Shown here: positions 3 through 16,960 of the stretch, in pieces
How the letters are laid out: each line of letters opens with the position of its first letter
How positions within the stretch are numbered: position 1 is the first letter of the stretch
Assembly (NCBI GenBank): GCA_003527885.1
Contig: DPWB01000404.1
Span: 1,044 to 18,453, forward strand
DNA length: 17,410 bases
Source: Candidatus Competibacteraceae bacterium
GTDB taxonomy: Bacteria; Pseudomonadota; Gammaproteobacteria; Competibacterales; Competibacteraceae
Direction of reading: 5' to 3'
Translations under genes and position numbers: made by a program
Notes under the pieces: model-generated
Seen by the model: the letters and a program-made list of their open reading frames with translations, nothing else
Database searches by the model: none
What the model was told of the DNA's origin: nothing

Positions 3-2030
3 AACACCAACGTCGGGTCCGGCCAGACCGTCCGCTTCGATCTGGGCAGCGTGCTCAACGAACCCAACGGCAGCGAAAAGGACGATTTCGTCCTGGTCGA
101 AATCTTCGCCCGCGTGCGCAATATCGTCGCCAACCAAAACGGCGGCTCAGTTCTCAACGGCGAAGCCGCCGGTTCGCCGGTGTCGGTCAGCTACAACGAC
201 GGCGCGCCCCGCACGGTCAATTTCGACCACGACGACGCCACGCCCGGCAATCAAGGCATCCCCTTCACGGTGATCGAGCCGGTATTGGGCGTGACCAAGG
301 CCGCCAGCCCGGCCGCTCAGGCGCTCGGCGATGTGGTCACTTATAACTTGACCGTGAGCCATCAGCCGACCAGCACGGCGGACGCCTACGACGTGGTGTT
401 GACCGACACCCTGCCCGCCGGCTTGACCTATATCCCCGGCTCGGTGAATCCGCCGCCGGCTTTCGTCTCGTTCGACGCCGGCACGCGCGTCCTGCGGCTC
501 GCTTACGCCACTTTACCGCTAGCCGAGGGCAGCCGGACGGTCAGCTACCAGGCCCGCATCGACACGTCGGCCACGGTCGGGACGCCGCTCAACAACGCGG
601 TCGCGATGACCTGGGCCAGCCAGCCCGACGCGGCCGGCACGCCGGATGACGGCCGCACTGGAGCCGACGGCTCCGGCGGCGCGCTCAACGATTACGCGAC
701 CACCACCAGCGCGCCGGTCACGCCGACCGCGAGTTCATCCATCGATGCGGTCAAGACCGTCGCCGATGTCAACGGCGGCGTGGCGCTACCCAACGACGTG
801 TTGGAATACACGGTCGTTTTGACCAACACCGGCAGCACGCCGGCCACCAACGTCGTTTACACCGACCCGATTCCGGCCAACACGACCTACATTGACGGTT
901 CGTTGTTGCTGAACGCCGCTCCGGCCACCAATGCGGGCACGGCGGCGCAATTACAGCTCGCGGTCGGCGGCCTGCAACCTGGAGCCAGCGCCACCGTCAA
1001 GTTCCAGGTGCGCATCAATGCCGGCGTGGCCAATGGCGTGGTGATCCGCAATCAAGGTTCCGTGGATTCGGATCAGACCGTGCCGGAACCGACCGACAGC
1101 GACGGCGACGACAACAACGGCGACCAACCAACCGACATTCCGGTCGGCGGCCAACCGCCGTTGACCAGCGCGCTGTATTCCGAGAAGACCGTCGCTTGGA
1201 CTGATACTAACGGCTCCAGCACCGTCAACGCGGGCGACACCCTGCGCTATACCGTCACCCTGCGCAACCGGGGCGCGGCGACGCTCACCGGCTTGAGTTT
1301 CAACGATACCATTCCAACCGGGCTGAGCTACGTCGCCGCCTCCGCTTCCGCCACCAGCGGCACGGCGGCGGTGACCGGACAAACCGTCAGTTGGACCGGA
1401 ATAGCCGATCTCGCGCCGGGCGCGAGCCAAACCTTGCGGTTCGATGTCACGATTGGGGCCATCACCGGCGCGAGTCAGACCTTCACCAACCAAGGCAGCG
1501 CCGCCTCTACCCAAACCGGTTCTGTCCTCACCGACAGCAACGGCGACCCCAGCGACGGCAGCCAGCCGACTTCGATCACGGCGGTCGGCACCGGAACCGC
1601 CGCGCCGGCGCTGGACGCGCAGAAGCGCTGGTCTCTGGCGGTAGATGGCAGCACCATCGGCGTGGTCGATCCCGGCGATACGGTGCAATACACCCTCACC
1701 GTCACCAACACCGGCGCGCAAGCCGCCAGCAACGTGCGGCTGACCGACGCGCCGCTGCCGGCTCAGTTCACCTTCGTCCCGGGCAGCCTCGCCACCAGCC
1801 TCGGTGCGGTGGTGACCGAAACCCCCATCGACGTCAACGTCGGCACTCTGAACCCCGGTCAGACCGTCACCGCCACCTTCCGAATGACGGTTAACGCCGG
1901 GACCAACGGCCTAATCGCCAACAATCAGGCGAACGCGACGGCGGCCGGCGGCATTTCGGTCAACAGCGACGACAACGGCAACCCCGGCGACGGCCTGAAC
2001 CCGACGCTGACCCCCATCGGCCCGGTCGCC
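3..2030 (+). repeat. Higher-order duplication, copy A (about 4.5 domains)
   Basis: The run of domain subtypes here (ARxDN tail, NDY, VDSDQT, TDSNGDP, KRW-type) recurs in the same order at about 4100-6040. Matching positions are offset by roughly 4,095, 4,077, 4,050 and 4,034 nt going down the block. Specific peptide matches support true block duplication: STADAYD against STADAFD, VIRNQG followed by VDSDQTVP in both, and QPTxIT. At DNA level, bases 1041-1086 and 5121-5166 align without gaps and with few mismatches. Confidence 0.7.
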
Positions 2031-5000
2031 ACCTTCGCCGGCCTGAGCAAAACGCTGGTCAGCACCTCAAACGGCAACGACGCGAACGCCGCCGTTCAAA
2101 TCGGTGAAATCCTGAGCTATCAAATCGAGTTTAACGTTCCGGCCGGCACGACCGGCGAGGTGACGATGCTCGACACTTTGCCGGCGGGTATGAGTTACGT
2201 GGCCGGTACGGCGCGGCTGGCGCGGCGGTTCGGCACGGGATTGACGGCTTCGCAGAATCCGGGCGGCGTCAACGCCGCCGTCAGCGATGCTTTCGTCCCG
2301 TTGACCGACGGCGCTGAAGCCGTGGCGGCCGGTCAGACCCTCAGCGTGTTCCTCGGCAACGTCATCAACTCTGGCGGTAATTCGAGCTATGTTCTCGAAC
2401 TGCAAGCGCGGGTCGATAACGTCGCCGGCAACCAAGCGGGTACGGCGCTCACCGATCAAGCGGACCTGAGCTACCGGAACGCCGCCGGCCAACTGGGCAA
2501 CCTGACTCCGGCGACGCAAACCACCACGGTGGCGGAGCCGAACCTCCAGATCGCCAAGACCGCTTCGGTCAACGCCGTGCTGCCCAATACCGCCAGCACG
2601 ATCCGCTTTACCGTGACGCTGACCAACCCGGCCGGCGCGAACGTCAGCGCGGCGCACGATGTCAGCATCAGCGATATCTTGCCGGCGGCCTTTGCTTCCG
2701 CGGCGCTGGTCAGCGCCACGCCAAGCGGCGGCGTGACCGGCCAAACGTGCGCCTTTACCGGCACGACGCTCGGTTGCACAGCGACGCTGTTCCCGCCCGA
2801 CGGTCAGTTGGTGGTCCTTTACGACGCCACCACCACCGCCACGCTGGCGGAAGGCGCTAGCGTGACCAACAACAGCAGCGCGCAGTGGACCAGCTTGCCG
2901 GAAGCGAACCCCGGCGAGCGCACCGGCGCGGGCGGCGTCAACGATTACACCGCCGCCAGCGACGTGCTCATCCGGGTCGGGACGCCGAATCTGGACAAGA
3001 CCGTCGTCAACCCGCAAACCCGCTACGCCATCGGCGACGAGGTGAGCTACCGGGTGGTGCTGTCCTTCCCCGGCAGCTTCAACAGCGCCTCGTTCCAGGA
3101 CGTGTTGAGCGCGGGCTTGAGCTACGTGCCCGGCAGCCTGACGCTGGAGTACGGCACCGGCCTGAGCGCGTCCACGCCGCCCGCCGACTTCACGCGCACC
3201 GACAACGCGCCGGCGGCCGACCAGGAAACGTTGGCGCTGGCCTTCGGCACGTTGAGCAACGCCAGCGGCGACACGCGCACCGTCACCCTGAACTATCGGG
3301 CGCGGGTCGATAATCTGCTGAGCAACCAAGACGGCCAGACGCTGCCGAACACGGCGACCCTGGGTTACGCCAAACCGCTGACCGGCGAACCGGCCAGCAT
3401 CAGCGACGCCGAAAGCGTCACCGTCGGCGAGCCGCAGCTGGCGGTCACTCACACCATCACCAGCCCGACCGCCAATCTTGAGGCGGGCGACACGGTGGGC
3501 TATCAGGTCACCGTCACCAATACCGGCAATACGACTTCCTTCGAGACCTTGTTGCGCGAGTTGCTACCGCCGGGATTGGGCAACGTCCAGGGCATCAGCG
3601 TGGTGCTGACCAACACCAGCGGCGGCAGCGAAACGCCGACCATCACCGTGTTGCCCGACGGCTGGCAAAGCAGCCCGTTCGATCTCAAGCCGGGCGACAG
3701 CGTCAAGATCGTGTTCACCGCCACCCTGCAAAACACCGTGCAGCCGGGCCAGACCTTGCAAGCGAGCGTGGACGCGACCTACAGCAGCCGCGACGGCGAC
3801 GACCCGAACCAACGGACCGGCACGACGGCGGGTCCGAGCCAGGACGACGATACCGCGCTCGACAACTACCGCGTCGCGGCGCTGTCGGACACGTTCACGG
3901 TCGGCGATCCGGTGTCCTTGAACAAGGCGTTCCAGCCAGACCCGGCCAAGACGAACTACGCCATCGGCGAAACGGTCGGCTACCGGCTACGGCTGTCGGT
4001 GGGCGAGGGCACGGTTCGGGCGGTCACGGTGACCGACACCCTGCCGGCGGGCTTGACCTTCCTCGACGCCACTGTCGGTCAGGGCAACACCGGCATCACC
4101 TTCGGCGGCGGCGCGCCGGTCCAGACCGGCCAAACGCTGACCTTCAACTTGGGCGATCTGGTGAACCCGACCAACGGCAACGCCGCCGACGACTTCATCA
4201 CCCTCGACATCCGCGCGCGGCTGGACAATCTGCCCGAACACCAGGATGGCGTCGTGCTCGGCAACAACGCGCAATTGCGCTTCACCGACGGCGCGGGCGT
4301 CCCGCAAACGCGGGACTTCGACGCCGACACGAGCGCGCCGGGCCTCCAGCCGCTGAATCTCACCGTGGTGGAGCCCAACCTCGCGCTCGCCAAAGCCGTA
4401 ACCCCGACTCAACAGAGTCTCGGCGATGAGGTGACTTTCACCTTGACGCTGGATCATACGGCGGCCAGTACGGCGGACGCTTTCGATCTGGTGGTGGGCG
4501 ACACTTTGCCGGTCGGCTTGAGCTACAGTCCGGGTTCCGCCTCGCCAGCGCCGGCCAGCGTCTCGCCGGACGGGCGCACGCTGGTTTGGAACATCGCCAG
4601 CCTGACCCGCACCAGCGACCATCTGGCCATCAGCTATCGGGCGCGAATCGCGATGGACGCCGTGGTCGGCATCGGTCTGACCAACGCCGCAGCATTGGGC
4701 TACGCCTCCAGCCCCGGCGCGACCGGCGGCGCGGACAGCGGACGTACCGGGGCCGGTGGTCTGAACGACTATGCGGCGACCGGCGCGGCCACGGCCACGC
4801 CGACCACTAATTCGGTGATCAACGCCAGCAAGTCGGCCGGGTTCGCCGCCGGCGGCGATGCCAACGGCAATGGCGCGGTCGAGCCGGGCGATATCCTGTT
4901 GTATGCGATCAGCCTGACCAACACCGGCGCGAGCCCGACCCACAACGTCGTTTTCACGGACCCGATGCCGGCTCAGACCGAGTATGTCGCCAACAGCAGC

Positions 5001-6605
5001 AACCCGCCGGGCGTGTTCAGCAACGACACGCTGACGGTGAATCTGGGAACGCTGAACGCGGGCGCTTCGGCCGTCGTCAGCTTCCAGGCACGGGTCAACA
5101 CCACCGCCGCAGCCGGTACCGTGATCCGCAACCAGGGTGTGGTGGATTCCGATCAGACGGTGCCGGTCCCGACCAATCAGACCGAGACGACGGTGGTTGC
5201 AGCCGTCCAGCCGCGGCTGGCGGCCTACAAGGCGGTGGCCGTGCAAAACGACGCCACCCCGGTCGGCGCCGTCGGTCCCGGCGATAGCTTGCGCTATACC
5301 ATCGTGCTGCAAAATAGCAGCGCCGCGCCGCTGGCGGGCTTGACGCTGGCCGATCCGATCCCCGACGGGTTGAGCTACGTCAGCGGCAGCGCCAGCCCCG
5401 CGGCTACGCTGGCCGGCGCGACCTTGACCTGGAGCAATCTGAGCGTGCCCGCCAACGGTACCCTGGTGGTGACCTTCGATGTCACGATCAACCCGTTCAG
5501 CGGTTCCACGCGGGCGTTCAGCAACCAGCTCGTGGCGAGCTCGCCGCAAATCGGCGCCGTACAAACCGACTCGAACGGCGATCCGGGCGACGGCGCGCAA
5601 CCGACCACGATCACGGCGGTGGTGGGCGCAACCGGCGCCCCGAGGTTGGAATTGCGCAAACGCTGGGAACTCCAGCAGGATCTGGGAGGCGATGGAGCGG
5701 TCAGCCCAGGCGATACCGTCCTGTACGGGCTGGTGGTGGCGAATACCGGCTCCAGCGCGGCCAGCGCGGTGCGGATCGTGGATACGCCGTTACCGGCCCA
5801 GGTCAGCTTGGTGGCCGGCAGCACGGTGACCACGCGGGGCGCCGTCGCCGGCGAGAATCCGCTCACCGTCAATATCGGAACCCTCAATCCGGGCGAAACG
5901 GCGGCGGTCAACGTCCTGGTCACCATCAAGTCCGGCACCGAGGGCCAGATCGCCAGCAACCGGGCGACCGCGACGGCGGCCAATGCCACCGGCGTTTCGT
6001 CCAACATGACGCAAACGCCGATTGCGGGGGCCGGCCACCTGTTCGATCCGCCCTCCGGCCGCAAGACGGTGAATGCCAGCGGCCTGCCCGTGCTCGAATG
6101 GCGCATGGTCTGGATCAACGACGGCAACCAAACGGCGCTGGCGACGCGGGTCGTGGACGCCATCCCGGCCGGGACCGTCTACGAGCCTGGCAGCCTGCGT
6201 TGTGAGGCGCGCGGCGGTTCGACCGTAGCCCTGTGCAATTACGACGCCGCTCAAAATCGGGTGGTTTACCAGGGCAACATCGCCGCCGATCCGGGCGCGC
6301 TGGATGAGACAACGGCCCAGAACGAAGTCGTGATCGTCTTCGGCAGCCGGCTCCAGACCGGGATCACCAACGCCAGCAACACCGGCGCCGCCCACTGGGA
6401 CGCCAACGGCGATGGCAACGTGGACAACGATGTCGCCGCCGGACAACAGCCGGTCAAGACCAACAGCGGCGAAGCCACGGTATGGGATATCGCGGAGATT
6501 CCGACGCTGTCTCAAGTCGCCACGCTGGTATTGCTGGGCTTGCTGTTGCTGCTGGGATGGAGTCACCGGGATCGAGCCGTGCAACCGGGAGGCTCGCGTC
6601 GCTAG
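3..6605 (+). CDS. Giant DUF11-repeat surface protein with IPTL-CTERM anchor (5' truncated)
   Basis: The reading frame is open from the first bases and the first in-frame start-like codon (GTG at 51) lies inside a repeat, so the true start and any signal peptide are upstream of the window. About 2,200 residues are visible. They are tandem domains of the DUF11 / conserved-repeat type, each with the pattern K-T/A... GD.v.Y.ltv.NTG... v..tD.lPaGl.Y.pGS, roughly every 430-490 nt. Composition is rich in Ala, Thr, Gly, Asn and Asp. Only four cysteines are evident, in two close pairs (near 2750-2780 and 6200-6240). Asp/Asn/Gly-rich linkers such as DSDGDDNNGD resemble calcium-binding loops (inference). 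The C-terminus is an IPTL motif, a hydrophobic stretch and an Arg-rich tail. Known for the family: exported, surface-associated, often adhesive or structural. The exact role here is unknown. The family assignment is solid; an adhesin role is inference. Confidence 0.9.
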   Translation, partial: NTNVGSGQTVRFDLGSVLNEPNGSEKDDFVLVEIFARVRNIVANQNGGSVLNGEAAGSPVSVSYNDGAPRTVNFDHDDATPGNQGIPFTVIEPVLGVTKAASPAAQALGDVVTYNLTVSHQPTSTADAYDVVLTDTLPAGLTYIPGSVNPPPAFVSFDAGTRVLRLAYATLPLAEGSRTVSYQARIDTSATVGTPLNNAVAMTWASQPDAAGTPDDGRTGADGSGGALNDYATTTSAPVTPTASSSIDAVKTVADVNGGVALPNDVLEYTVVLTNTGSTPATNVVYTDPIPANTTYIDGSLLLNAAPATNAGTAAQLQLAVGGLQPGASATVKFQVRINAGVANGVVIRNQGSVDSDQTVPEPTDSDGDDNNGDQPTDIPVGGQPPLTSALYSEKTVAWTDTNGSSTVNAGDTLRYTVTLRNRGAATLTGLSFNDTIPTGLSYVAASASATSGTAAVTGQTVSWTGIADLAPGASQTLRFDVTIGAITGASQTFTNQGSAASTQTGSVLTDSNGDPSDGSQPTSITAVGTGTAAPALDAQKRWSLAVDGSTIGVVDPGDTVQYTLTVTNTGAQAASNVRLTDAPLPAQFTFVPGSLATSLGAVVTETPIDVNVGTLNPGQTVTATFRMTVNAGTNGLIANNQANATAAGGISVNSDDNGNPGDGLNPTLTPIGPVATFAGLSKTLVSTSNGNDANAAVQIGEILSYQIEFNVPAGTTGEVTMLDTLPAGMSYVAGTARLARRFGTGLTASQNPGGVNAAVSDAFVPLTDGAEAVAAGQTLSVFLGNVINSGGNSSYVLELQARVDNVAGNQAGTALTDQADLSYRNAAGQLGNLTPATQTTTVAEPNLQIAKTASVNAVLPNTASTIRFTVTLTNPAGANVSAAHDVSISDILPAAFASAALVSATPSGGVTGQTCAFTGTTLGCTATLFPPDGQLVVLYDATTTATLAEGASVTNNSSAQWTSLPEANPGERTGAGGVNDYTAASDVLIRVGTPNLDKTVVNPQTRYAIGDEVSYRVVLSFPGSFNSASFQDVLSAGLSYVPGSLTLEYGTGLSASTPPADFTRTDNAPAADQETLALAFGTLSNASGDTRTVTLNYRARVDNLLSNQDGQTLPNTATLGYAKPLTGEPASISDAESVTVGEPQLAVTHTITSPTANLEAGDTVGYQVTVTNTGNTTSFETLLRELLPPGLGNVQGISVVLTNTSGGSETPTITVLPDGWQSSPFDLKPGDSVKIVFTATLQNTVQPGQTLQASVDATYSSRDGDDPNQRTGTTAGPSQDDDTALDNYRVAALSDTFTVGDPVSLNKAFQPDPAKTNYAIGETVGYRLRLSVGEGTVRAVTVTDTLPAGLTFLDATVGQGNTGITFGGGAPVQTGQTLTFNLGDLVNPTNGNAADDFITLDIRARLDNLPEHQDGVVLGNNAQLRFTDGAGVPQTRDFDADTSAPGLQPLNLTVVEPNLALAKAVTPTQQSLGDEVTFTLTLDHTAASTADAFDLVVGDTLPVGLSYSPGSASPAPASVSPDGRTLVWNIASLTRTSDHLAISYRARIAMDAVVGIGLTNAAALGYASSPGATGGADSGRTGAGGLNDYAATGAATATPTTNSVINASKSAGFAAGGDANGNGAVEPGDILLYAISLTNTGASPTHNVVFTDPMPAQTEYVANSSNPPGVFSNDTLTVNLGTLNAGASAVVSFQARVNTTAAAGTVIRNQGVVDSDQTVPVPTNQTETTVVAAVQPRLAAYKAVAVQNDATPVGAVGPGDSLRYTIVLQNSSAAPLAGLTLADPIPDGLSYVSGSASPAATLAGATLTWSNLSVPANGTLVVTFDVTINPFSGSTRAFSNQLVASSPQIGAVQTDSNGDPGDGAQPTTITAVVGATGAPRLELRKRWELQQDLGGDGAVSPGDTVLYGLVVANTGSSAASAVRIVDTPLPAQVSLVAGSTVTTRGAVAGENPLTVNIGTLNPGETAAVNVLVTIKSGTEGQIASNRATATAANATGVSSNMTQTPIAGAGHLFDPPSGRKTVNASGLPVLEWRMVWINDGNQTALATRVVDAIPAGTVYEPGSLRCEARGGSTVALCNYDAAQNRVVYQGNIAADPGALDETTAQNEVVIVFGSRLQTGITNASNTGAAHWDANGDGNVDNDVAAGQQPVKTNSGEATVWDIAEIPTLSQVATLVLLGLLLLLGWSHRDRAVQPGGSRR
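282..6190 (+). repeat. Tandem array of 14 DUF11-type domains, alternating subtypes
   Basis: Domain starts, judged from the conserved K...GD..Y segment, lie near 282, 741, 1165, 1609, 2035, 2540, 2988, 3435, 3915, 4377, 4816, 5214, 5643 and 6045; the tail of one more precedes 282. Domains fall into recognisable subtypes by their C-terminal signature. One ends in A-R-v/l-D-N (tail domain before 282; domains starting at 2035, 2988, 3915). One ends in R-T-G...N-D-Y or a variant (282, 2540, 3435, 4377). One ends in V-D-S-D-Q-T-V-P (741, 4816). One ends in T-D-S-N-G-D-P (1165, 5214). The first two subtypes alternate through the middle of the protein. Boundaries are estimates by eye. Confidence 0.8.
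4100..6040 (+). repeat. Higher-order duplication, copy B
   Basis: This is the second copy of the block described at 3-2030, with the same order of domain subtypes. Protein similarity to the matching copy-A domain appears higher than to neighbouring domains, while DNA identity is moderate. That suggests an old duplication now diverging, or one kept partly alike by recombination. The domains between the copies (about 2035-4100) are different and alternate between two subtypes only. Confidence 0.65.
6498..6602 (+). other. IPTL-CTERM sorting signal at the end of the repeat protein
   Basis: The last 35 residues start with IPTLSQVA, continue as a run of about 14 mostly Leu/Val/Gly/Ala residues, and end in a basic tail (W-S-H-R-D-R ... 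R-R). This tripartite layout is that of the IPTL-CTERM family, which is thought to be processed by an exosortase of the XrtH type in Gram-negative bacteria (established family knowledge). The usual continuation IPTLxxWG is not kept: V-A stands where W-G is expected. Confidence 0.8.
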
Positions 6606-6632
6606 GCGACGGCCAGGAAGCTAGCTGAACGG

Positions 6633-6659
6633 TAAGGGCGTCCCCGGTGGACGCCCTTA
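6633..6659 (+). terminator. Hairpin after the giant repeat gene
   Basis: A perfect 11-bp inverted repeat (TAAGGGCGTCC / GGACGCCCTTA) with a 5-nt loop begins 28 nt after the stop codon. It is followed by TCGTTACC and not by a clear T-run, so it may be an imperfect rho-independent terminator or an mRNA 3'-end stabiliser. It separates the repeat gene from the helicase gene. Confidence 0.65.
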
Positions 6660-6734
6660 TCGTTACCGGACGGTTGAACGAAACAGAGAATGCTTTAGGC
6701 TAGGCGGAGACGCTTGCCAACCGCTGAGAATTCC

Positions 6735-8216
6735 ATGCCTTTCCGCACCAAAGACAACGCGGGCCTTTACCGCGTCGGCCACGATGACTCCGAACGCCAG
6801 CTTCGCTTCGACCGGGGTACTTTATTGCTGGAAGGCGTCGCCGAACTGCCGGCCGGCTTGGAGACTTGGTTTTGCTACGACCCGCGCGTGGACGCCTATC
6901 GCGCCCCGGCCAATTGCTACAGCGATATCATCGGCCCGCTAAAGAGCGAGCTGGCCCGCAACAAAGCGCCGCGCTACCAACTGCGGGAATTGAGCTGCGC
7001 GCTGGAAATGACGCCTTATCCGCACCAGCGGGAAGCGCTGGCGGCGTGGCGGGCGGCGAAAGGGCGCGGGGTGGTGGTGCTGCCGACCGGGGCCGGCAAA
7101 ACCCTGGTCGGCTTGCTGGCGCTGTGCTGGGCGCGACGGGACGGGCTGATCATGGTCCCGACCCTGGATTTGATGCAGCAATGGTACGCTTTGCTGCGGG
7201 CCGCTTTTCCCGATCAAGAGATCGGCCTGATCGGCGGCGGCTACCACGAACCGCAGCCGCTCACCATCGCCACCTACGATTCCGCCGCCCGGCACATCGA
7301 ACGTTTGGGCGACCGCTTCGGGTTGCTGGTCTTCGATGAAGTCCATCATCTGCCGTCGGAGTTTTACCGGATCATCGCCGAATTTTCGCTGGCCCCCTAC
7401 CGGCTGGGCTTGACCGCGACGCCGGAGCGTAGCGACGGGCGCGACGCCGATCTACCCGCTTTGATCGGCCCTATCGTCTACCGCAAGCGCCCCGAACAGT
7501 TGGCCGGCGGCGTGCTGGCGGATTTTCAGGTGCGCTCGGTCCACGTCGATTTGTCGCCCGCCGAACGCGCCGCTTACCAGCAAGCGCTGGACGAACGCAA
7601 CAGCTTCTTGCAAGCGAACCGGCTATCGTTGAGCACGCTGGAAGGCTGGAACCGTTTCGTGATGCTGTCGGCGCGCAGCGTCGAGGGCCGCCGCGCCATG
7701 CGCGCGCACCGCGACGCCCGCCGCATCGCCCACGCCACGCCGGGCAAGCTGCGGGCGCTGGGCTTGGTGTGCGCCAATCACCCCGGCGCCAAGACGGTGA
7801 TTTTCACCGAGGACAACGCCACCGCCTACGAAGTCTCCCAGCGCTTCCTGATCCCTTGCCTGACCCATCAGACCGCGATCAAGGAGCGCCAGGCTTTTCT
7901 GGATGGCTTTAAAAGCGGGCTTTATACCGCCATCGTCACCAGCAACGTGCTCAATGAAGGGGTGGACGTACCGGACGCTTCGATCGGCGTCATCCTGTCC
8001 GGCAGCGCCTCGGCGCGGGAATTCGTGCAGCGCCTGGGGCGCATTTTGCGGCGCGGCGACGGCAAGCAGGCGGTTCTTTATGAAGTGATCGCCAAGGAAA
8101 CGCGAGAAGAGCGGGTCGCCGACCGCCGCCGCACACCGCCCGATACGGCCCGGAAAGCGGAACGGATCGAAGCGACCTTGGCCTTGTTCGACCCATCGCT
8201 CCCGGCGCCCCCGTAA
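6735..8216 (+). CDS. XPB-like superfamily 2 DNA helicase
   Basis: This is an ATP-dependent DNA helicase of the XPB/Rad25 type, about 493 residues from the chosen ATG. The frame also allows TTG at 6714, preceded closely by GGAGA; I prefer ATG 6735, with GAG 6 nt upstream. Numbered from TTG 6714, motifs in order are: an N-terminal domain of about 95 residues with W-x-C-Y-D-P-R and Y-R-A-P (resembling the damage-recognition domain of archaeal XPB); P-H-Q (about 102); Walker A L-P-T-G-A-G-K-T (about 123-130); DEVHH Walker B (208-212); L-T-A-T-P-E-R (about 233); K-T-V-I-F (about 360); N-E-G-V-D-V-P (about 413); and Q-R-L-G-R-I-L-R-R (about 439). The archaeal/eukaryal RED motif after L-T-A-T appears here as R-S-D. 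The gene directly downstream is DUF790, the Bax1 nuclease family, which supports an XPB-type identity. The helicase call is firm; a role in excision repair is inferred. Confidence 0.9.
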   Translation: MPFRTKDNAGLYRVGHDDSERQLRFDRGTLLLEGVAELPAGLETWFCYDPRVDAYRAPANCYSDIIGPLKSELARNKAPRYQLRELSCALEMTPYPHQREALAAWRAAKGRGVVVLPTGAGKTLVGLLALCWARRDGLIMVPTLDLMQQWYALLRAAFPDQEIGLIGGGYHEPQPLTIATYDSAARHIERLGDRFGLLVFDEVHHLPSEFYRIIAEFSLAPYRLGLTATPERSDGRDADLPALIGPIVYRKRPEQLAGGVLADFQVRSVHVDLSPAERAAYQQALDERNSFLQANRLSLSTLEGWNRFVMLSARSVEGRRAMRAHRDARRIAHATPGKLRALGLVCANHPGAKTVIFTEDNATAYEVSQRFLIPCLTHQTAIKERQAFLDGFKSGLYTAIVTSNVLNEGVDVPDASIGVILSGSASAREFVQRLGRILRRGDGKQAVLYEVIAKETREERVADRRRTPPDTARKAERIEATLALFDPSLPAPP

Positions 8217-8226
8217 GCCTCAAGCG

Positions 8227-9417
8227 ATGCTCCCTTCCGACCTGCTGTTTTCCTCCAAGCGCGGCGCGCAGGTGTATCCGCGTTTTTTGCGGCGCGAACA
8301 GCACCTGTGGGCCGAGCAGGTTTTGAACCTGATCCGCGAACACCAGCACCGGCCGCGCGGTGAATTGCAAGCCGCGTTGCGCGCCTTGGAAGGCGATTCG
8401 CCCGATTACCGCATCGTGCGCGGCTTCTCTCATCTGGCGTTGAACGCCGCCGAATTCACTTTGGCGACCGGCGAGCTGGAGCCGGAAACGTTGCGGCGCG
8501 AGGTGTTCGCGCTGGCGGCCGAACGCGGTGGTTACGGGGAAACTCAGGCTAAAGCGGTGTTGGAAACCGTCGCGCCCCGCTATCGGCTGGAAGCGGACGC
8601 CTTGCGGGAATCGCTCTACGCCGACTTGCCGGAAAATCACCTGTTGACCGTGCTGCCGGAGTTCACGCCGGACAAGCTGGTGGACCGTTACAATCTCGCC
8701 CAGGCGCAGGGGCTGCTGTACTCGGCGCTCTATCTGCGCCTCACCGCCCACCGCAACGTGCCCGGCGAATACCGGCGGCTGTTCCAGCACCTCAAGTTTC
8801 ACGGGCTGATGTACGCCGTCGAGGGCAACCTGGATGACGGCTATCAGATTTACGTGGACGGCCCCGCCAGCCTGTTCAAGCAGACCCGCAAATACGGCCT
8901 GCAAATGGCGATGTTCCTGCCGGCGTTGCTGCGGGTCAGCCGCTGGGAGATGGAGGCGGTGTTGCAGCGAGACGGTCAGGAGCTGAGTTACCGGCTCGAT
9001 TCGCAGTCGCCGCTTAGGTCGTTGCAAGCCCCGCCACCAGCCTATGACAGCCTGCTGGAAGAGCGTTTCGCCGTCCGTTGGGATAAGCTCGGCACGGCCT
9101 GGGCGCTGGAGCGGGAGGTGGAAATCGTCGATCTGAAGGGTACGGTGTTCGTCCCCGATTTCGCCTTGCGCCACACCGATGGCCGTATCGCCCATGTCGA
9201 GATCATGGGTTTTTGGCACCCGGATTATCTGCGCCGCAAGCTGGATAAATTGCGGCGCGCCGCCATGCCGGATTTGATCGTCGCCGTTTCGGAGCGCTTG
9301 AATGTCGGCGCGGATGATTTTCGCGAGATTCCCGGCCCGGTGATTTTCTTCAAGGGCAAGCTGGAGCCCCGGCAGGTACTGGCCGTACTGGAACCGTCGG
9401 GAACTGCGGCTGATTGA
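8227..9417 (+). CDS. DUF790 / Bax1-family nuclease, partner of XPB-like helicase
   Basis: The product is 396 residues, starting 10 bp after the helicase stop, so the two are almost surely co-transcribed. The N-terminus M-L-P-S-D-L-L, the tract L-x-H-L-K-F-H-G-L and the C-terminal nuclease core match DUF790. The core reads V-P-D-F (D311), then H-V-E-I-M-G-F-W (E325), then Y-L-R-R-K-L (K338), with E-E-R-F about 25 residues before the Asp. This fits a PD-(D/E)xK-like fold in which the Lys of the E-x-K position is Met327; Lys338 may substitute (inference). Archaeal Bax1 binds XPB and is a structure-specific DNA endonuclease whose activity is coupled to the helicase (established). No signal peptide is visible, so it should act in the cytoplasm on DNA. 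I see no clear SD sequence, and translational coupling to the helicase is likely. Confidence 0.88.
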   Translation: MLPSDLLFSSKRGAQVYPRFLRREQHLWAEQVLNLIREHQHRPRGELQAALRALEGDSPDYRIVRGFSHLALNAAEFTLATGELEPETLRREVFALAAERGGYGETQAKAVLETVAPRYRLEADALRESLYADLPENHLLTVLPEFTPDKLVDRYNLAQAQGLLYSALYLRLTAHRNVPGEYRRLFQHLKFHGLMYAVEGNLDDGYQIYVDGPASLFKQTRKYGLQMAMFLPALLRVSRWEMEAVLQRDGQELSYRLDSQSPLRSLQAPPPAYDSLLEERFAVRWDKLGTAWALEREVEIVDLKGTVFVPDFALRHTDGRIAHVEIMGFWHPDYLRRKLDKLRRAAMPDLIVAVSERLNVGADDFREIPGPVIFFKGKLEPRQVLAVLEPSGTAAD

Positions 9418-9452: not shown

Positions 9453-9836
9453 TTACTGCCGGGGACCGTCAACGATGTCCACCAAGATATCGCCGTGAAA
9501 AACCAGCGTCTTGAGCAAGGTTCCCCGGCCCAGGTTATATTCCCATTTGTAGACGGGAATGACGCGGCGATATTCGGTTTCGTAGCCCGGCAGCCCATAG
9601 GGCAACGGCATGGGCCTGACCGGGTAATAGCCATCGTTGTAGCGCACGGCTTGCTCGATGAACCCGTCTTGCCAGGCATGACGCGGCTCGCCGCAGGCGT
9701 CCAACACCTGCGATTGAGAATTGCCGGTTTGCACCACGTAGCGACCGCAGCGCAGGCTGTCGGCGGACGCCACCGCTGCGACCGCGCCCAACGCCAGCAA
9801 TGCTGCCATGATAACCAAGCGCCTTAACCCGCGCAT
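9453..9836 (-). CDS. Exported DUF2845 domain protein
   Basis: The product is 127 residues from the ATG whose codon ends at 9836, preceded by a good SD (GGGAG, 8 nt spacing). The frame extends 12 codons upstream, but that start would place charged residues before the signal sequence. The N-terminus is a typical signal peptide (M-R-G-L-R-R, hydrophobic core, A-S-A-D). The mature part begins L-R-C-G-R-Y-V-V-Q-x-G and continues V-L-D-A-C-G-E-P, the DUF2845 signature with two conserved cysteines. It is probably periplasmic; function unknown. It converges with the DUF790 gene (35 bp between stops) and diverges from the GDT1-family gene. I see no functional link to either neighbour. Confidence 0.85.
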   Translation of the reverse strand: MRGLRRLVIMAALLALGAVAAVASADSLRCGRYVVQTGNSQSQVLDACGEPRHAWQDGFIEQAVRYNDGYYPVRPMPLPYGLPGYETEYRRVIPVYKWEYNLGRGTLLKTLVFHGDILVDIVDGPRQ

Positions 9837-10002
9837 GTCGTTTGCTCCCGGTCGAAAATCGGCCTCAGCCACGCTGGCGCCTTGGGGCGTGTCCTCAAAT
9901 TGACTGGCGAGCCCGAACGGCTTTCGCGATCATCCGACAAGGCGCTTTACTGCCGCAATTGTTTATCATGCCCCATTCTGACCCTCACCGCCGAAAACAA
10001 TT

Positions 10003-11582: not shown

Positions 11583-11617
11583 GAGTCCTCTTGACCGGCT
11601 CAAGCGGCCGGTGACTC
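11583..11617. terminator. Nested inverted repeat between convergent genes
   Basis: In the 69-bp gap between the stops of rarD and the HDOD-GGDEF gene, GAGTC (11583-11587) pairs with GACTC (11613-11617) and ACCGGC (11594-11599) pairs with GCCGGT (11607-11612), leaving a one-sided bulge. A competing small hairpin, CTTGA-CCGGC-TCAAG (11590-11604), uses the same bases. There is no T-run in either direction. The position suits a bidirectional transcription end, but this is tentative. Confidence 0.4.
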
Positions 11618-13235
11618 ATTGACCGTAAACGAACAGCTGATCGGGGCCGGCGCGTTTGGCGGCAGCGAGCGCTTCTTCGGCGGCTTGCAGCAATTCCTCG
11701 GCGGTGATGCTCTCGGCGAAACCGGAGTCGGGATACGTCGCCAATCCGGCGCAAAAGGTGATATGCAGGCTATTTTCTCCGCCCAAGGTCGGTTCCCACT
11801 GGCGGGCCAGCTCCTGCAAGCGCGCCAACAGGTGGCGGCCCGGTTCTGCGCCGCTGGCCGGCAGCAGCAGCGCGAACTCGTCGCCGCCGTGGCGGGCTAC
11901 CGTATCGTGGCGGCGGATGTTGGCCCCGAACAGACGGCACAGCACGATCAATACCTGATCGCCGACCGCTTGGCCGCGCGTTTCGTTGATCTGCGTGCAA
12001 TGGTCCAGATCCACCAGCACCAAGGTCAGGGGCCAGTTCTGAGCTTTGGCGGTCGTCAGCTCCCGGCGCAGGATGTCTTCAAAGTAAGCACGGTTGAACA
12101 GTCCGGTCAGCGAATCGAAGACGTACTCGTCATCGAGCGGGAGCTGGGGGTGCAAGCCCGCGGGCGGGCTGGAGCCGATCACGGTAACCGGTCGCTCCGC
12201 CAAAAAATCGGCCGCCGCGACCGCGGCGACGCCAGTCCCAGGGGGATGACCCCCGCTCGCCAGCGCGGCCATCTCTTGCCGGTTGCGTACGGTCAGCGCC
12301 TCGCGGGCCTGATCGAGAATGCCGGCGATCTCGGTGGCATCCAAGGTCTTGATCTGGAAAAGCTCGGCCATTTCAGGGAGTTTGGCTCCGACCGAGCCTA
12401 ACAGCTCCACGTAATCTTGCGCGGCCAAGCCGAACCACTGGCGGGCCAGTTCCGCGATCTGGGGCGAATTTTGCCAGTAGCCGGGACGGACCCAGATATC
12501 GGCCAAGCGCACCGAGAGCGCCACGCATTCGACCAAGCTTCTGTGAGGTTCGGGCACCAGCGGATCGCTCGGATCGAGGCTGCCGGCCACCGCGTGACAC
12601 AGATAATCCGGCAAGCCCCAACGGTTTAACAGCCAGGAGCCCACTTGAGTGTGATCGACTTGCAAGCGAACCCGTTCCAGCCGGGCCAGCCGCTCGACAT
12701 CTAAAACGGCCGAACCGTCCAACTGGCGGTCGCCGGACTCGTCCAGCAAGGTGGCATATTGATCGGGCATCATGATGGCCAACGCCAGAATCCCGATGCC
12801 GTGCAGCAGCCCGGCCAGGAACAGTTCCTCCAGGTTTTTCAACCCGAGCCGTTCGCCCAAAGTGCGGCAAGCGGTGGCCGCCAGCAGCGAGCGACGCCAA
12901 AATTGCTCCGTGTCCAACGGGATTCCGTTGATGCCGCGCGAGCTGGCCATCAGCGAAAAGCCCAGGGCCAGCGCCAGCGTGCCTTGTAGCCCCAACAAAT
13001 TCAAAACCTGCCGCAGGTTGGTCGCCTTGCGGCGCACGCCGTACAGCGGCGAATTCGCGACCCGGAACAGTTTGGTCACCAGGGCGGGATCCATGGCGAT
13101 CACCCGCGCCACATCGTTGAGATGAACTTCCGGATTGTTGGCGAGTTCGATGATTCTGAGGGCGACCGCCGGCAAGGTCGGCAGGTTGCCGCAGAAACTC
13201 AACCGTTGTTCCAGTTCTACATGCATGATGGTCAT
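11616..13235 (-). CDS. HDOD-GGDEF signalling protein (putative diguanylate cyclase)
   Basis: The product is 539 residues. An N-terminal HDOD domain covers about residues 10-215 (L-P-T-L-P-A-V, V-I-x-x-D-P-A-L, R-V-A-N-S-P-L-Y-G, L-L-H-G-I-G). A linker of about 150 residues follows, then a GGDEF domain at about 370-539. The HD pair is H145-G146, in line with HDOD domains not being metal phosphohydrolases. The cyclase active-site motif GGDEF is intact (450-454). An RxxD inhibitory site (R441-R-H-D444) sits five residues before it, as in product-inhibited cyclases. The substrate segment D-L-D-H-C-T-Q-I-N-E departs from the usual D-x-D-x-F-K-x-x-N-D, so activity may be reduced (inference). No membrane segment is seen. 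Start: ATG 13235, or ATG 13226 three codons in, which has a GGATG upstream. It is divergent from a GGDEF-EAL gene. Confidence 0.9.
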   Translation of the reverse strand: MTIMHVELEQRLSFCGNLPTLPAVALRIIELANNPEVHLNDVARVIAMDPALVTKLFRVANSPLYGVRRKATNLRQVLNLLGLQGTLALALGFSLMASSRGINGIPLDTEQFWRRSLLAATACRTLGERLGLKNLEELFLAGLLHGIGILALAIMMPDQYATLLDESGDRQLDGSAVLDVERLARLERVRLQVDHTQVGSWLLNRWGLPDYLCHAVAGSLDPSDPLVPEPHRSLVECVALSVRLADIWVRPGYWQNSPQIAELARQWFGLAAQDYVELLGSVGAKLPEMAELFQIKTLDATEIAGILDQAREALTVRNRQEMAALASGGHPPGTGVAAVAAADFLAERPVTVIGSSPPAGLHPQLPLDDEYVFDSLTGLFNRAYFEDILRRELTTAKAQNWPLTLVLVDLDHCTQINETRGQAVGDQVLIVLCRLFGANIRRHDTVARHGGDEFALLLPASGAEPGRHLLARLQELARQWEPTLGGENSLHITFCAGLATYPDSGFAESITAEELLQAAEEALAAAKRAGPDQLFVYGQ

Positions 13236-13268
13236 CCAAAGCTAAAGTCGCGGCGAAAACTGCCGACT

Positions 13269-13297
13269 ATTATTGAAATCGGCTATAAAAAAACCAA
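13269..13297 (-). promoter_or_regulatory. Candidate promoter for the HDOD-GGDEF gene
   Basis: Reading the minus strand, TTGGTT (13292-13297) is followed 17 nt later by AATAAT (13269-13274), a 5/6 match to the -10 box; the -35 matches only 3/6. It would start transcription about 25 nt before ATG 13235. It lies in the AT-rich gap between the two divergent c-di-GMP genes. Confidence 0.35.
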
Positions 13298-13342
13298 GTT
13301 TTAAATAAAATTTTTTTAAACGCTGTTTAGAATAGTGGCTCT
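13281..13342. promoter_or_regulatory. AT-rich divergent regulatory region
   Basis: Between the two divergent signalling genes the sequence turns sharply AT-rich, with A- and T-tracts (for example 13284-13292 and 13307-13319), against a GC-rich surrounding. Such tracts suit promoters, bending or binding by H-NS/IHF-like proteins. A TAGAAT at 13328-13333 resembles a -10 box for the rightward gene but is too near its ATG (13343) to leave a normal leader. The rightward promoter is therefore not resolved. Confidence 0.4.
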
Positions 13343-15703
13343 ATGATCGACGAACCCGACGGCAAGCAGGGCCAGAAGACCGATTTTCACTGCCAGCACT
13401 GTGGTTCTCTCCAGGACAGGTTGGCGGCGCTACAAGTTGAGCTGGGCCAGCTCCGGCAGGAGTTTCGCCGCAGCCAGATCATCGCGCATGTCATCGAAGA
13501 ACTGCACCGTCTGGCGAACCGTCAGGCCACCATCGGCGAGCTGGGCGAGCTGATGGTGAACTTGCTGGTGGAGGTGTTAGCGGCGGATAGCGCCGCTTTG
13601 TTGAAATGGGATGGGCGGCGGGGCCGATTCATCGTCGCGTACGGTCGGAGTTTGCCCTCGGATTGGGAGCTGGCACTGGCTTCGTCCGAGGCTCCCGATG
13701 GCTGCGATTCGTCCCGATACCCGCAGGCGGCGTCGCAATTCGTGGAAATCCTGAATCGGAGCGCGACGCTGCGTCGCTGGATCTGGGTGTGCCACCGGCG
13801 CACCGGGCTGGCCCTGTTGTTGGGCGATGCCTTGGACAGCGGCCTGAACCGCAACCGTTTCAATGCCGACGACCATCGCATCGCCGAGACGGCGCTCGCT
13901 GTTTACGTCACCTTGCACCATCTGGACCGCACGGAAACCGCGCTCAAATATTCGGAAACCAAATATCAAGCGTTGTTCGACGGCGCGACCGACGCCTTGG
14001 CCGTGCTCGATCCAGATAGCGGTCTGATTCTCGATCACAACCGCCAAGCTCAGGAAATTTTCGGCGACAGCGCGGGCGGCAGGCGCCGGCGCACGCTGGA
14101 AGACTGCTTGTTCGGCGCCGATGGCGCCGTGCGGGACTCCCTGGCCCGGCACCGCGCCCGAGCGCTGGCGGGGGAAACGACGCCGGTCGAGTACCGGTTC
14201 CGCGACGCCGCCAACCAGCCGTTCTGGATCGAGCTGCACTTCAAAACGGTTGAGATCGAGGGGCAGTTGCAACTGTTGGCGATCTTGCGCGATATTTCCG
14301 AGCGCAAGCAGGTTGAAGCCCGCTTGCAATATCACGCCTTGCACGACGCCCTGACCGGGTTGCCCAACCGGGCCATGATCCTGGGGAAACTTCAGGAAAT
14401 GCTCGATAGCCGCTATCCCCGCCACGAGCTGTCGGCGTTGCTGCTACTGGACATCAACCGCTTCAAAGTGATCAACGACAGTTTGGGCCACGACATCGGT
14501 GACCGGATGCTGGCGGTGATCGGGCAGCGCTTGCAATCCTGTTTGCGCGTCGGAGACATCGTCGCCCGCTTGGGCGGCGATGAGTTTTTGCTGCTGCTGG
14601 CCGAGTTGCGCCAGCCGGGCGACGCGATGATCTGCGCCGAACGCGTCCATCAAAGCTTGTCCGACTCTTTTTACATCGGCGATCATGAAATTCACGCCAC
14701 GGCCAGCATCGGGATCGCGTTGAACCAGGGCGACCGCCAGCGCGCGGAAGACATGCTCCGCGATGCCGATATCGCGCTGCATCAAGCCAAGGCGCGGGGC
14801 AAGGATCAGCCTTACGTCCTGTTCGACTCGGCCATGTACGACCAGATGGTCCGGCTCATGCAACTGGAGCGCGATCTGCGCCGCGCCCTGGAACAACGGG
14901 AATTCGAGGTGTTCTATCAGCCGATCATCAATCTGGCCACCGGCGCGCTGAAAGGCTTCGAAGCGCTGGTGCGCTGGCGGCATCCCGAGCGCGGGCTGGT
15001 CTCGCCGGCCGATTTCATTCCCGTGGCCGAAGAAACCATGCTGATCGTGCCGCTGGGCCGGGAAGTGTTGGCTGACGCCTGCCGTCGGTTGGCGACCTGG
15101 AGCCGCTGCTACCCGGAACGGATGCCCATTACCCTCTGCGTCAACCTGTCCAGCCGCCAGTTGCTCGATGGCGGTCTGTTCGAAGATATTCGCCGCCTGT
15201 TGGCGGAAACCGGGTGCGATCCGGCGCTATTGGAGTTGGAAATCACCGAAAGCGTGTTGATCGACAACAGCGATACCGCCCGCGCGCTGTTGAACAGCTT
15301 GCGCGATCTGTCCATTCGCCTGTCGCTGGACGATTTCGGCACCGGCTATTCCTCGTTGAGTTATCTGCACCAGTTCCCTTTCGATACCATCAAGATCGAC
15401 CGGACTTTCATCCAGACCATGGACCAGAGCGACGGCCGTCTGGAGATCGTGCGCGCCATTATCGCCCTCGCGCGCGCCTTGGGAAAAAACGTGGTCGCCG
15501 AGGGTCTGGAAACCTTGGAACAGGTCGATTTGCTGACGAGCCTGGGCTGCGACTTCGGTCAGGGCTACTACTTCGCGCGGCCGATGAACGCGGTCGCGGC
15601 CGAATCGTTCTTGACCAAGGCCAGCGTGCTGTCGGCGGCGGAGCGGTCGGTCGGCTGGGCCGGCGCCGTTGCGCCCAGAGACTATCGAGCGGCGTCGAGC
15701 TGA
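13343..15703 (+). CDS. GAF-PAS-GGDEF-EAL c-di-GMP turnover protein
   Basis: The product is 786 residues and apparently cytoplasmic (no signal peptide or membrane helix). Layout: an N-terminal C-x-x-C and short coiled-coil (about 15-50); a GAF-like domain (about 50-195); a PAS domain (about 205-325, K-Y-Q-A-L-F-D-G-A-T-D-A-L-A-V-L-D); GGDEF (about 330-490); EAL (about 510-765). GGDEF is intact at 411-415, with an RxxD I-site (R-V-G-D, 402-405) and canonical N-R-F-K-V-I-N-D. EAL is also intact: F-E-A-L-V-R-W (539-545), V-N-L-S-S-R-Q, E-I-T-E-S, D-D-F-G-T-G-Y-S-S (663-671) and A-E-G-L-E-T. Both cyclase and phosphodiesterase activity are therefore possible. In many such hybrids the EAL activity dominates and GGDEF acts as a GTP sensor (family knowledge). 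GAF and PAS are likely to sense a small ligand, gas or redox state; the signal cannot be told from sequence. Confidence 0.93.
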   Translation: MIDEPDGKQGQKTDFHCQHCGSLQDRLAALQVELGQLRQEFRRSQIIAHVIEELHRLANRQATIGELGELMVNLLVEVLAADSAALLKWDGRRGRFIVAYGRSLPSDWELALASSEAPDGCDSSRYPQAASQFVEILNRSATLRRWIWVCHRRTGLALLLGDALDSGLNRNRFNADDHRIAETALAVYVTLHHLDRTETALKYSETKYQALFDGATDALAVLDPDSGLILDHNRQAQEIFGDSAGGRRRRTLEDCLFGADGAVRDSLARHRARALAGETTPVEYRFRDAANQPFWIELHFKTVEIEGQLQLLAILRDISERKQVEARLQYHALHDALTGLPNRAMILGKLQEMLDSRYPRHELSALLLLDINRFKVINDSLGHDIGDRMLAVIGQRLQSCLRVGDIVARLGGDEFLLLLAELRQPGDAMICAERVHQSLSDSFYIGDHEIHATASIGIALNQGDRQRAEDMLRDADIALHQAKARGKDQPYVLFDSAMYDQMVRLMQLERDLRRALEQREFEVFYQPIINLATGALKGFEALVRWRHPERGLVSPADFIPVAEETMLIVPLGREVLADACRRLATWSRCYPERMPITLCVNLSSRQLLDGGLFEDIRRLLAETGCDPALLELEITESVLIDNSDTARALLNSLRDLSIRLSLDDFGTGYSSLSYLHQFPFDTIKIDRTFIQTMDQSDGRLEIVRAIIALARALGKNVVAEGLETLEQVDLLTSLGCDFGQGYYFARPMNAVAAESFLTKASVLSAAERSVGWAGAVAPRDYRAASS

Positions 15704-15916: not shown

Positions 15917-16960
15917 ATGAGCATTCGTTTTTTCCCCTGGTTCCTTGGCATGGCAACGCTGGCCGGAGTGGCGTTCGCCGCCGACAGCCAATGGCAAGCC
16001 TTGCCGGAAACCGCGCCGGCGCCCGCCGACAATCCGACCACCGAGGCCAAAGTGACGCTCGGCAAGATGCTGTATTTCGACACCCGTTTCTCATCGACCG
16101 GTAACATCTCCTGTTTTTCCTGTCACAACGTGATGGAAGGCGGCGACGATCACCGGCCCACCTCGATCGGCGTCCACGGGCAGGTCGGCGGCCGTAACGC
16201 CCCGACGGTGTGGAACGCGGCCTTCAATTCGGCGCAGTTCTGGGATGGCCGCGCGCCTTCACTGGAAGAACAGGCCAAGGGTCCTCCGACCAATCCCATC
16301 GAAATGGGTATGCAGGATTTGGATGCCACCATCGGCCGCGTCAAGAAAATTCCGGGCTACAAAGCCCATTTTGAAGCGGCGTTCGGCAAGGGCGAGGTCG
16401 TGACCATGGACAACGCCGCCAAGGCCATCGCCGCTTACGAGCGGACCTTGATCACGCCCAACAGCGCCTACGACCGCTACGTCAAGGGCGACAAGAAAGC
16501 GCTGACCGAGCAGCAGGTGCGGGGGATGGAGACCTTCGCCAAGACCGGCTGCACCGCCTGCCACTCCGGCCCGGCGTTTAACGGCTCGCAAAACATGCCG
16601 GCGGGGCAGGGCTTCTTCATGAAATTCCCCACCTTCCCCGGCAGCGTGTACGACACTCAGTATCGGTTGCTCGAAGACAAAGGTCGCGCCGATGTCACCA
16701 AAAAGGACGAAGACAAACAGATGTTTCGGGTGCAGACCTTGCGAAATCTCGCCTATACCGCGCCGTATTTCCACAACGGATCGGTCAAGAGCTTGGATGA
16801 GGCGGTAAAGGTCATGGCGAAGGCTCAGCTCAACAAGGATCTGAAAGATGCGGAAGTCAAGGATATCGTGGCCTTTCTGGACGCGCTGAACGGTGAATTT
16901 CCGAAACAAACCATGCCGATGCTGCCGCCGACGCCCGGCGATTTGATCACCGAAAACTGA
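15917..16960 (+). CDS. Periplasmic diheme cytochrome c peroxidase
   Basis: The product is 347 residues. ATG 15917 has a strong SD (AGAGGGA, about 6 nt spacing) and starts a signal peptide with cleavage at A-F-A|A-D (about residue 22). Two heme c sites are present: C-F-S-C-H (66-70, N-terminal peroxidatic heme) and C-T-A-C-H (212-216, C-terminal electron-transfer heme). The stretches L-G-K-M-L-Y-F-D-x-R, N-A-P-T-V-W-N, F-W-D-G-R-A, N-P-I-E-M-G and L-R-N-L-A-Y-T-A-P-Y-F-H-N-G are classic for the bacterial CCP/MauG superfamily. Length and the conserved order fit true CCP, not MauG (inference). It reduces H2O2 to water in the periplasm with electrons from small cytochromes or cupredoxins. Met269 (before F-R-V-Q-T-L-R-N) is a candidate distal ligand of the high-potential heme. 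It is probably a single-gene unit, closed by its own terminator. Confidence 0.95.
   Translation: MSIRFFPWFLGMATLAGVAFAADSQWQALPETAPAPADNPTTEAKVTLGKMLYFDTRFSSTGNISCFSCHNVMEGGDDHRPTSIGVHGQVGGRNAPTVWNAAFNSAQFWDGRAPSLEEQAKGPPTNPIEMGMQDLDATIGRVKKIPGYKAHFEAAFGKGEVVTMDNAAKAIAAYERTLITPNSAYDRYVKGDKKALTEQQVRGMETFAKTGCTACHSGPAFNGSQNMPAGQGFFMKFPTFPGSVYDTQYRLLEDKGRADVTKKDEDKQMFRVQTLRNLAYTAPYFHNGSVKSLDEAVKVMAKAQLNKDLKDAEVKDIVAFLDALNGEFPKQTMPMLPPTPGDLITEN

Follow-up and report, generated by a model that had tools for sequence, protein, structure and literature searches.

An XPB-Bax1 helicase-nuclease gene pair in Candidatus Competibacteraceae: a probable bacterial counterpart of the archaeal complex

The stretch of DNA analysed here (the window; 17,410 nucleotides) comes from a Candidatus Competibacteraceae bacterium (assembly GCA_003527885.1, contig DPWB01000404.1, positions 1,044 to 18,453) and carries a gene for an XPB-type helicase followed by a gene for a nuclease of the Bax1 (DUF790) family. 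XPB is a eukaryotic repair and transcription helicase. From sequence comparison and by analogy with archaea, the two genes probably constitute a bacterial XPB-Bax1 unit that would serve chromosomal DNA maintenance beside UvrABC. Sequence comparison places both proteins in their families and shows that they keep the residues of the nuclease domain and some of those mapped to the XPB-Bax1 interface. The two genes are inherited together, and are present or absent jointly even when they are unlinked.

The XPB gene (6735..8216, + strand) is an intact open reading frame of 493 amino acids from the ATG at 6735, a start backed by a 94% identical relative whose alignment runs from residue 1. The Bax1 gene (8227..9417, + strand) follows after a gap of 10 bases and encodes 396 amino acids from an ATG, also in an intact frame. 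A first-pass annotation, made from the letters alone, had described an XPB-type helicase and a DUF790/Bax1 protein 10 bp apart in a gammaproteobacterium-like genome. Profile searches bear this out, matching XPB and full-length DUF790, and the host is indeed gammaproteobacterial.

The helicase matches XPB_DRD (PF18458; 5.5e-10, 39.4 bits against a cut-off of 26) and ERCC3_RAD25_C (2.1e-11) in Pfam, together with ResIII and Helicase_C. The XPB_DRD match defines a damage-recognition domain at residues 23-71 (6801..6947, +), and the thumb (ThM) region at about residues 262-335 (7518..7739, +) has 74 residues, as do its counterparts in Archaeoglobus and Sulfurisphaera. Judged by these two domains, the window XPB is of the Archaeoglobus type. 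For both proteins the best matches in PDB are the solved archaeal XPB-Bax1 complexes, with family signals far beyond chance; for XPB they are the Archaeoglobus fulgidus sequences (AfXPB; 6p66_A and 2fwr_A, E about 3e-102, residues 13-467). The annotation's choice of XPB over UvrB, RecG or type III restriction helicases is upheld by this score, set against best values of 1.2e-6 for UvrB in PDB and 1.7e-6 for RecG models; RadD, at 1.9e-12, is also far weaker. The protein scores 203 bits against the bacterial-XPB equivalog of NCBIfam (NF045503, cut-off 610) and so lies outside the Mycobacterium type.

Residues were compared in an alignment of 69 pairs, comprising the window, 66 others with Bax1 in a named public locus and two archaeal pairs from PDB alignments; for 28 of the 66 public pairs, XPB was taken from elsewhere in the genome that carries Bax1. 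In the Walker A motif PTGAGKT (residues 117-123; 7083..7103, +), G121 and K122 are present in 69/69, and position 123 is T in 51 pairs, S in the remaining 18. The D, E and H of the DEVH box (residues 201-204; 7335..7346, +) are invariant, the V being found in 37/69. The RED-motif position reads R232-S233-D234 (7428..7436, +), with R in 65/69 and D in 67/69. The strict R-E-D is not needed for an archaeal-type XPB, since the motif, RED in Archaeoglobus, is RDD in Sulfurisphaera tokodaii XPB (StXPB) itself. The wedge residue of the thumb, F278 in StXPB, is W305 in the window and W in 60/69.

The nuclease matches PF05626 (DUF790) over the whole profile (1-387 of 387; E 2e-123, 412.5 bits), and its predicted fold agrees with the assignment to the Bax1 family. 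Five PDB sequences match at E <=1, all of them Bax1 (5.5e-45 to 1.4e-33); PDB entry 8gy8 is deposited as a putative IF-2 homolog, yet titled Bax1. Against the archaeal Bax1 equivalogs NF053694 and NF053695 the scores are 198.8 and 169.8 bits, where the cut-offs are 500 bits. By sequence, the window protein is thus a member of the Bax1 family but not of the archaeal equivalog.

The PD-(D/E)XK nuclease domain (9046..9390, +) holds D274, S275, E278, D311, E325 and K338, identical in 69/69. D311 and E325 align with D305 and E318 of A. fulgidus Bax1 (AfBax1). The third acid of AfBax1, E275, named in PMC7293015 (this and the other papers cited are drawn on in part), aligns with the window's E279, which is E in 40/69, the preceding E278 being the invariant one. 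Migration of the lysine has been recorded for DUF790 nucleases (PMC1913061), and K338 may be that migrated lysine. A Cas2-like central domain is predicted at about residues 166-258 (8722..9000, +) from comparison with the AfBax1 CRD (residues 168-260; PMC7293015) and from the strands and helices of the model. Towards the N terminus, Y131-P135 (8617..8631, +) corresponds to the second nuclease/interface site, with D133 in 69/69 and Y131 in 62/69. The window Bax1 ends at residue 396 and matches AfBax1 residues 1-389; the C-terminal domain of AfBax1 (400-468) has no counterpart in it. After window residue 388, at most 24 residues are left in all 67 Bax1 rows that do not come from PDB, and therefore the AfBax1-type C-terminal domain is absent in these proteins.

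The positions at which XPB and Bax1 contact each other have been mapped in archaea (PMC7293015). R86 and F90 of S. tokodaii Bax1 (StBax1) are kept in 69/69 and 68/69 pairs as R90 and F94 of the window, in the equivalent of the XPB-binding patch (R90-F94; 8494..8508, +). The Bax1-binding residue E357 of StXPB, which was mutated jointly with E360 (PMC7293015), is E384 of the window XPB (7884..7886, +) and E in 69/69. The partnership suggested by the annotation from archaeal knowledge is supported; both proteins match solved complexes, and one interface pair, R90/E384, is invariant.

Distribution ties the two genes together. When 84,980 species genomes were scanned for two peptide patterns, at least 237 relatives came up, a lower bound, and 80 of them were kept. 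Beyond Competibacteraceae, the taxa with pairs include cyanobacteria, Deinococcota, Latescibacterota, Gemmatimonadota, Chloroflexota and haloarchaea. In a sample of 369 genomes of the class, the window's own included and with up to four XPB candidates scored per genome, Bax1 was present in three and XPB in the same three, each a member of the window's family; the remaining 366 yielded neither gene. Among 36 other genomes of the family, Bax1 was detected in 25 and XPB (>750 bits) in 23: both in 22, neither in 10, Bax1 only in three (58-83% complete) and XPB only in one (93% complete). This family search also took in the only genome from a different family of the order and 21 further genomes of the class, and Bax1 was found in none of them. 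Among 292 cyanobacterial genomes, with up to five XPB candidates scored in each, Bax1 occurred in 91 and XPB (E <=1e-60) in 90; 89 had both, two Bax1 only, one XPB only and 200 neither. Fisher p for co-occurrence was 7.6e-72 in cyanobacteria and 1.1e-5 in the family.

Joint presence does not depend on linkage. The 22 family genomes with both genes have them close on one contig in 13 cases and on different contigs in nine. In 39 of the 89 cyanobacteria XPB lies just upstream of Bax1 on the same strand, with 106-873 bases between the matched parts; in 23 the genes share a contig at distances of 8.7 kb to 3.3 Mb, and in 27 they are on different contigs, whose ends were not inspected individually. 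The annotation had named rare adjacency as a refutation of its reading; the genes are frequently, though not universally, adjacent and so are not rare neighbours. No clear XPB was seen within the flank at 44 of the 80 kept Bax1 loci. The genomes of 36 such loci were searched and XPB was recovered in 33 (E <1e-90; the misses are G416, G433 and G426); the remaining eight, with Competibacteraceae-type Bax1, were left out of that search. In a few Latescibacterota, XPB is on the Bax1 contig just past the flank.

Several individual loci deserve mention. In both Contendobacter odensis and a whole-genome twin of it (L018 and L058), the open reading frames after Bax1 resemble, as judged by eye, the DUF2845 and GDT1 neighbours of the window (in L058 also RarD), and XPB is found on a separate contig; apparently Bax1 was retained in place while XPB moved away. 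In two genomes, G035 and G032 (L026/L027 and L025/L029), Bax1 and XPB are each matched in two pieces, as decaying genes or assembly errors would be. XPB and Bax1 look fused in a single frame in a metagenome-assembled genome (MAG) of Anaerolineae (L108:2881-5697), but the joint is a run of N, so this is no evidence of fusion. Some MAG records with Bax1 carry titles that look wrong: Phycisphaerales (L049), Synechococcaceae (L057) and Klebsiella pneumoniae (L076), the last of which groups with a Binatia row in the trees.

Trees of the two proteins (69 sequences each) agree closely: patristic distances correlate with r 0.90, a value reached in 0 of 999 permutations, and 41 of 66 splits are common. 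Support values are SH-aLRT from a short search, with flags on several of the long branches. Both trees group Competibacteraceae with one Blastocatellia MAG in a clade of 17 (support 100 and 100); its sister clade has 21 members and contains cyanobacteria, Deinococcota and Verrucomicrobiota (support 91 and 99). The family's pair is separated from the rows of Archaeoglobus, Sulfurisphaera and haloarchaea, and the closest relatives known for it are therefore bacterial, not archaeal. The GC content of the pair (0.63-0.66) and its GC at third codon positions (GC3; 0.79-0.81) are similar to those of neighbouring genes and look native, so there is no sign of recent arrival. The annotation's suggestion that the pair was transferred fits its restriction to one family within the class, with the change that both trees place it in a bacterial clade. 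On the simplest reading, an ancestor of Competibacteraceae would have gained both genes jointly from another bacterium; the two would later have come apart in some members, and losses would have removed both together. Elsewhere in the trees, the pairs of a Calditrichota MAG (L103) and an Actinomycetota MAG (L104) are almost the same (branch lengths 0 to 0.05), through recent transfer or misbinning.

At the window locus, a DUF11 repeat protein (3-6605) ends just before a strong hairpin (6625..6669, +) which lies between it and the pair and is its likely terminator; the RNA fold is -29.4 kcal/mol against -14.6 +/- 2.8 for shuffles (z -5.3; 0 of 200 shuffles reached it). The DUF2845 gene downstream (9453-9872) is on the opposite strand. 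With the hairpin upstream and the opposed gene downstream, the XPB-Bax1 pair appears to form a separate transcription unit, for which no promoter was identified at this locus.

Compared with the archaeal XPB-Bax1 of A. fulgidus (6p66) and S. tokodaii (6p4f/6p4o/6p4w), both families match nearly full length. The window XPB shares the damage-recognition domain, helicase core and thumb of the archaeal complex (PMC7293015, PMC7672443), and the window Bax1 its N-terminal, Cas2-like and nuclease domains, the two acids D305 and E318, and, across the pair, R86 and E357. The window differs from that complex in its bacterial host with uvrABC genes, in a Bax1 that lacks the C-terminal domain, and in having RSD for RED/RDD, P for E135 and W for the wedge F. 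The archaeal Bax1 of Pyrococcus furiosus (8gy8), about 27% identical to that of the window, is also short (375 amino acids in the entry), and the AfBax1-type C-terminal domain is not in that structure. Mycobacterium-type XPB (NF045503) belongs to the same superfamily and is bacterial; according to PMC3353954 it differs in its N-terminal domain, its thumb is missing or much shortened, and it has no known Bax1 partner. The association of the two gene families (DUF790-SSL2, COG3372-COG1061) was recorded in 2005, cyanobacteria included (PMC1189080); in the parts of that paper used, the record is without the further phyla found here and without the joint presence of unlinked genes. This analysis adds a member from Competibacteraceae, the spread over many phyla, the match between the two trees and joint presence without linkage. 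Among the matches listed, no title or abstract opening reports experiments on a bacterial pair of XPB and Bax1, subscription literature being mostly outside the search.

The archaeal structures suggest how the unit could work. XPB and Bax1 would associate as a heterodimer. XPB, whose helicase polarity is 3' to 5', would grip a double-strand/single-strand junction through its RxD motif and thumb and open it, and the nuclease domain of Bax1 would cut one arm at the junction. Binding of XPB would hide the N-terminal site of Bax1, as in archaea (PMC7293015, PMC7672443). Without the dimerisation-linked C-terminal domain of archaeal Bax1, the bacterial protein may be monomeric and restrained by XPB alone. 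Alongside UvrABC, the unit would act in chromosomal DNA maintenance, excising at bubbles, flaps or stalled forks. The window's own genome (73% complete) holds fragments of uvrA, uvrB and uvrC, and UvrB was detected in 17 of 24 family genomes searched, this one included; the pair is therefore an addition to standard excision repair and not a replacement for it, and may act as a second repair machine.

Several observations weigh against this reading. The E of the RED motif, termed absolutely conserved in XPB (PMC3353954), is replaced by S in the window and varies across the alignment, being mostly S, A, P, G or T. Several mapped interface positions also vary, namely R87, P94 and V95 of StBax1 (window position 91 is R in 27/69) and E360 and K364 of StXPB. 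AfBax1 E135 is P in the window Bax1 and E in only 7/69, and the Fisher tests ignore shared ancestry. Finally, archaeal XPB mutants show slight UV sensitivity only (PMC7776575, PMC7690668), which leaves a part in repair less than firm even for archaea. A repair role is for that reason put forward with moderate confidence, and fork or crosslink processing is its main rival. On that alternative the pair would serve replication-fork restart, R-loop removal or crosslink unhooking and not lesion excision, a real though lesser likelihood. It would accord with the slight UV sensitivity of the archaeal mutants, with the study of archaeal XPB-Bax1 on forks and bubbles, where the complex contacts the junction (PMC7293015, PMC7672443), and with the uvr gene fragments already in the genome. 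Nothing specific speaks against it, its substrates overlap those of excision repair, and sequence data cannot separate the two.

That the pair is instead an anti-invader system, unwinding and cutting incoming DNA, as the annotation had also ventured, appears improbable. Its patchy distribution could reflect the gain and loss typical of defence genes, and the earlier record left room for a "selfish character" of the association (PMC1189080). Bax1 was also matched in 40 plasmid records, 11 of them Deinococcus and the other named genera haloarchaeal, the match also touching a helicase gene in 25 of the 30 records listed; phage records gave no match. Helicase models of PADLOC do match the window XPB (best PbeA, 3.8e-47), and some neighbours at other loci match PADLOC, but Bax1 itself matches no PADLOC model, nor do the six window neighbours scanned (the DUF11 protein was outside the scan). 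Among 80 neighbours chosen from 23 other loci, the PADLOC matches are led by GajB-type UvrD helicase and Cas12f models; the most frequent family matches two of the neighbours and the other 24 listed of 69 match one each. The 25 Pfam families listed of 140 are mostly metabolic, with no recurrent defence family. XPB and Bax1 are, besides, often far apart and still both kept. That they are ordinary neighbours travelling together by chance and acting separately is very improbable: adjacency was unseen in 9/22 family genomes and 50/89 cyanobacteria with both genes, but the two are jointly present or absent also where they lie apart, the tree of one matches that of the other, and key residues of the interface do not vary.

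Other genes of the window are noted for completeness. The DUF11-repeat protein has 2200 amino acids in the window, an open 5' end and 11 DUF11 stretches, and its C-terminus EIPTLSQVATLVLLGLLLLLGWSHRDR looks like what we take to be an IPTL-CTERM sorting signal. Adjoining c-di-GMP-type signalling genes, HDOD-GGDEF (- strand) and PAS-GGDEF-EAL (+ strand), occupy 11616-15703, and a MauG/cytochrome c peroxidase-like di-haem protein lies at 15917-16960 (best NCBIfam TIGR04039, under its cut-off).

A broader proposal, which we hold tentatively and regard as somewhat less than an even prospect, is that an overlooked large share of bacteria uses an obligately paired XPB-Bax1 as a second, UvrABC-independent route of excision or fork repair, with an old bacterial lineage and a eukaryote-type repair helicase without a TFIIH-like partner. 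The share in question comprises 89/292 cyanobacteria and 22/36 Competibacteraceae relatives, plus members of Latescibacterota, Gemmatimonadota, Deinococcota, Verrucomicrobiota and Chloroflexota. Joint presence and absence in bacteria point to a putative shared job of XPB and Bax1 in DNA upkeep. The archaeal XPB-Bax1 has been solved structurally, and a bacterial pair that comes and goes as one unit beside the well-understood UvrABC would let its role in the cell be probed cleanly by genetics.
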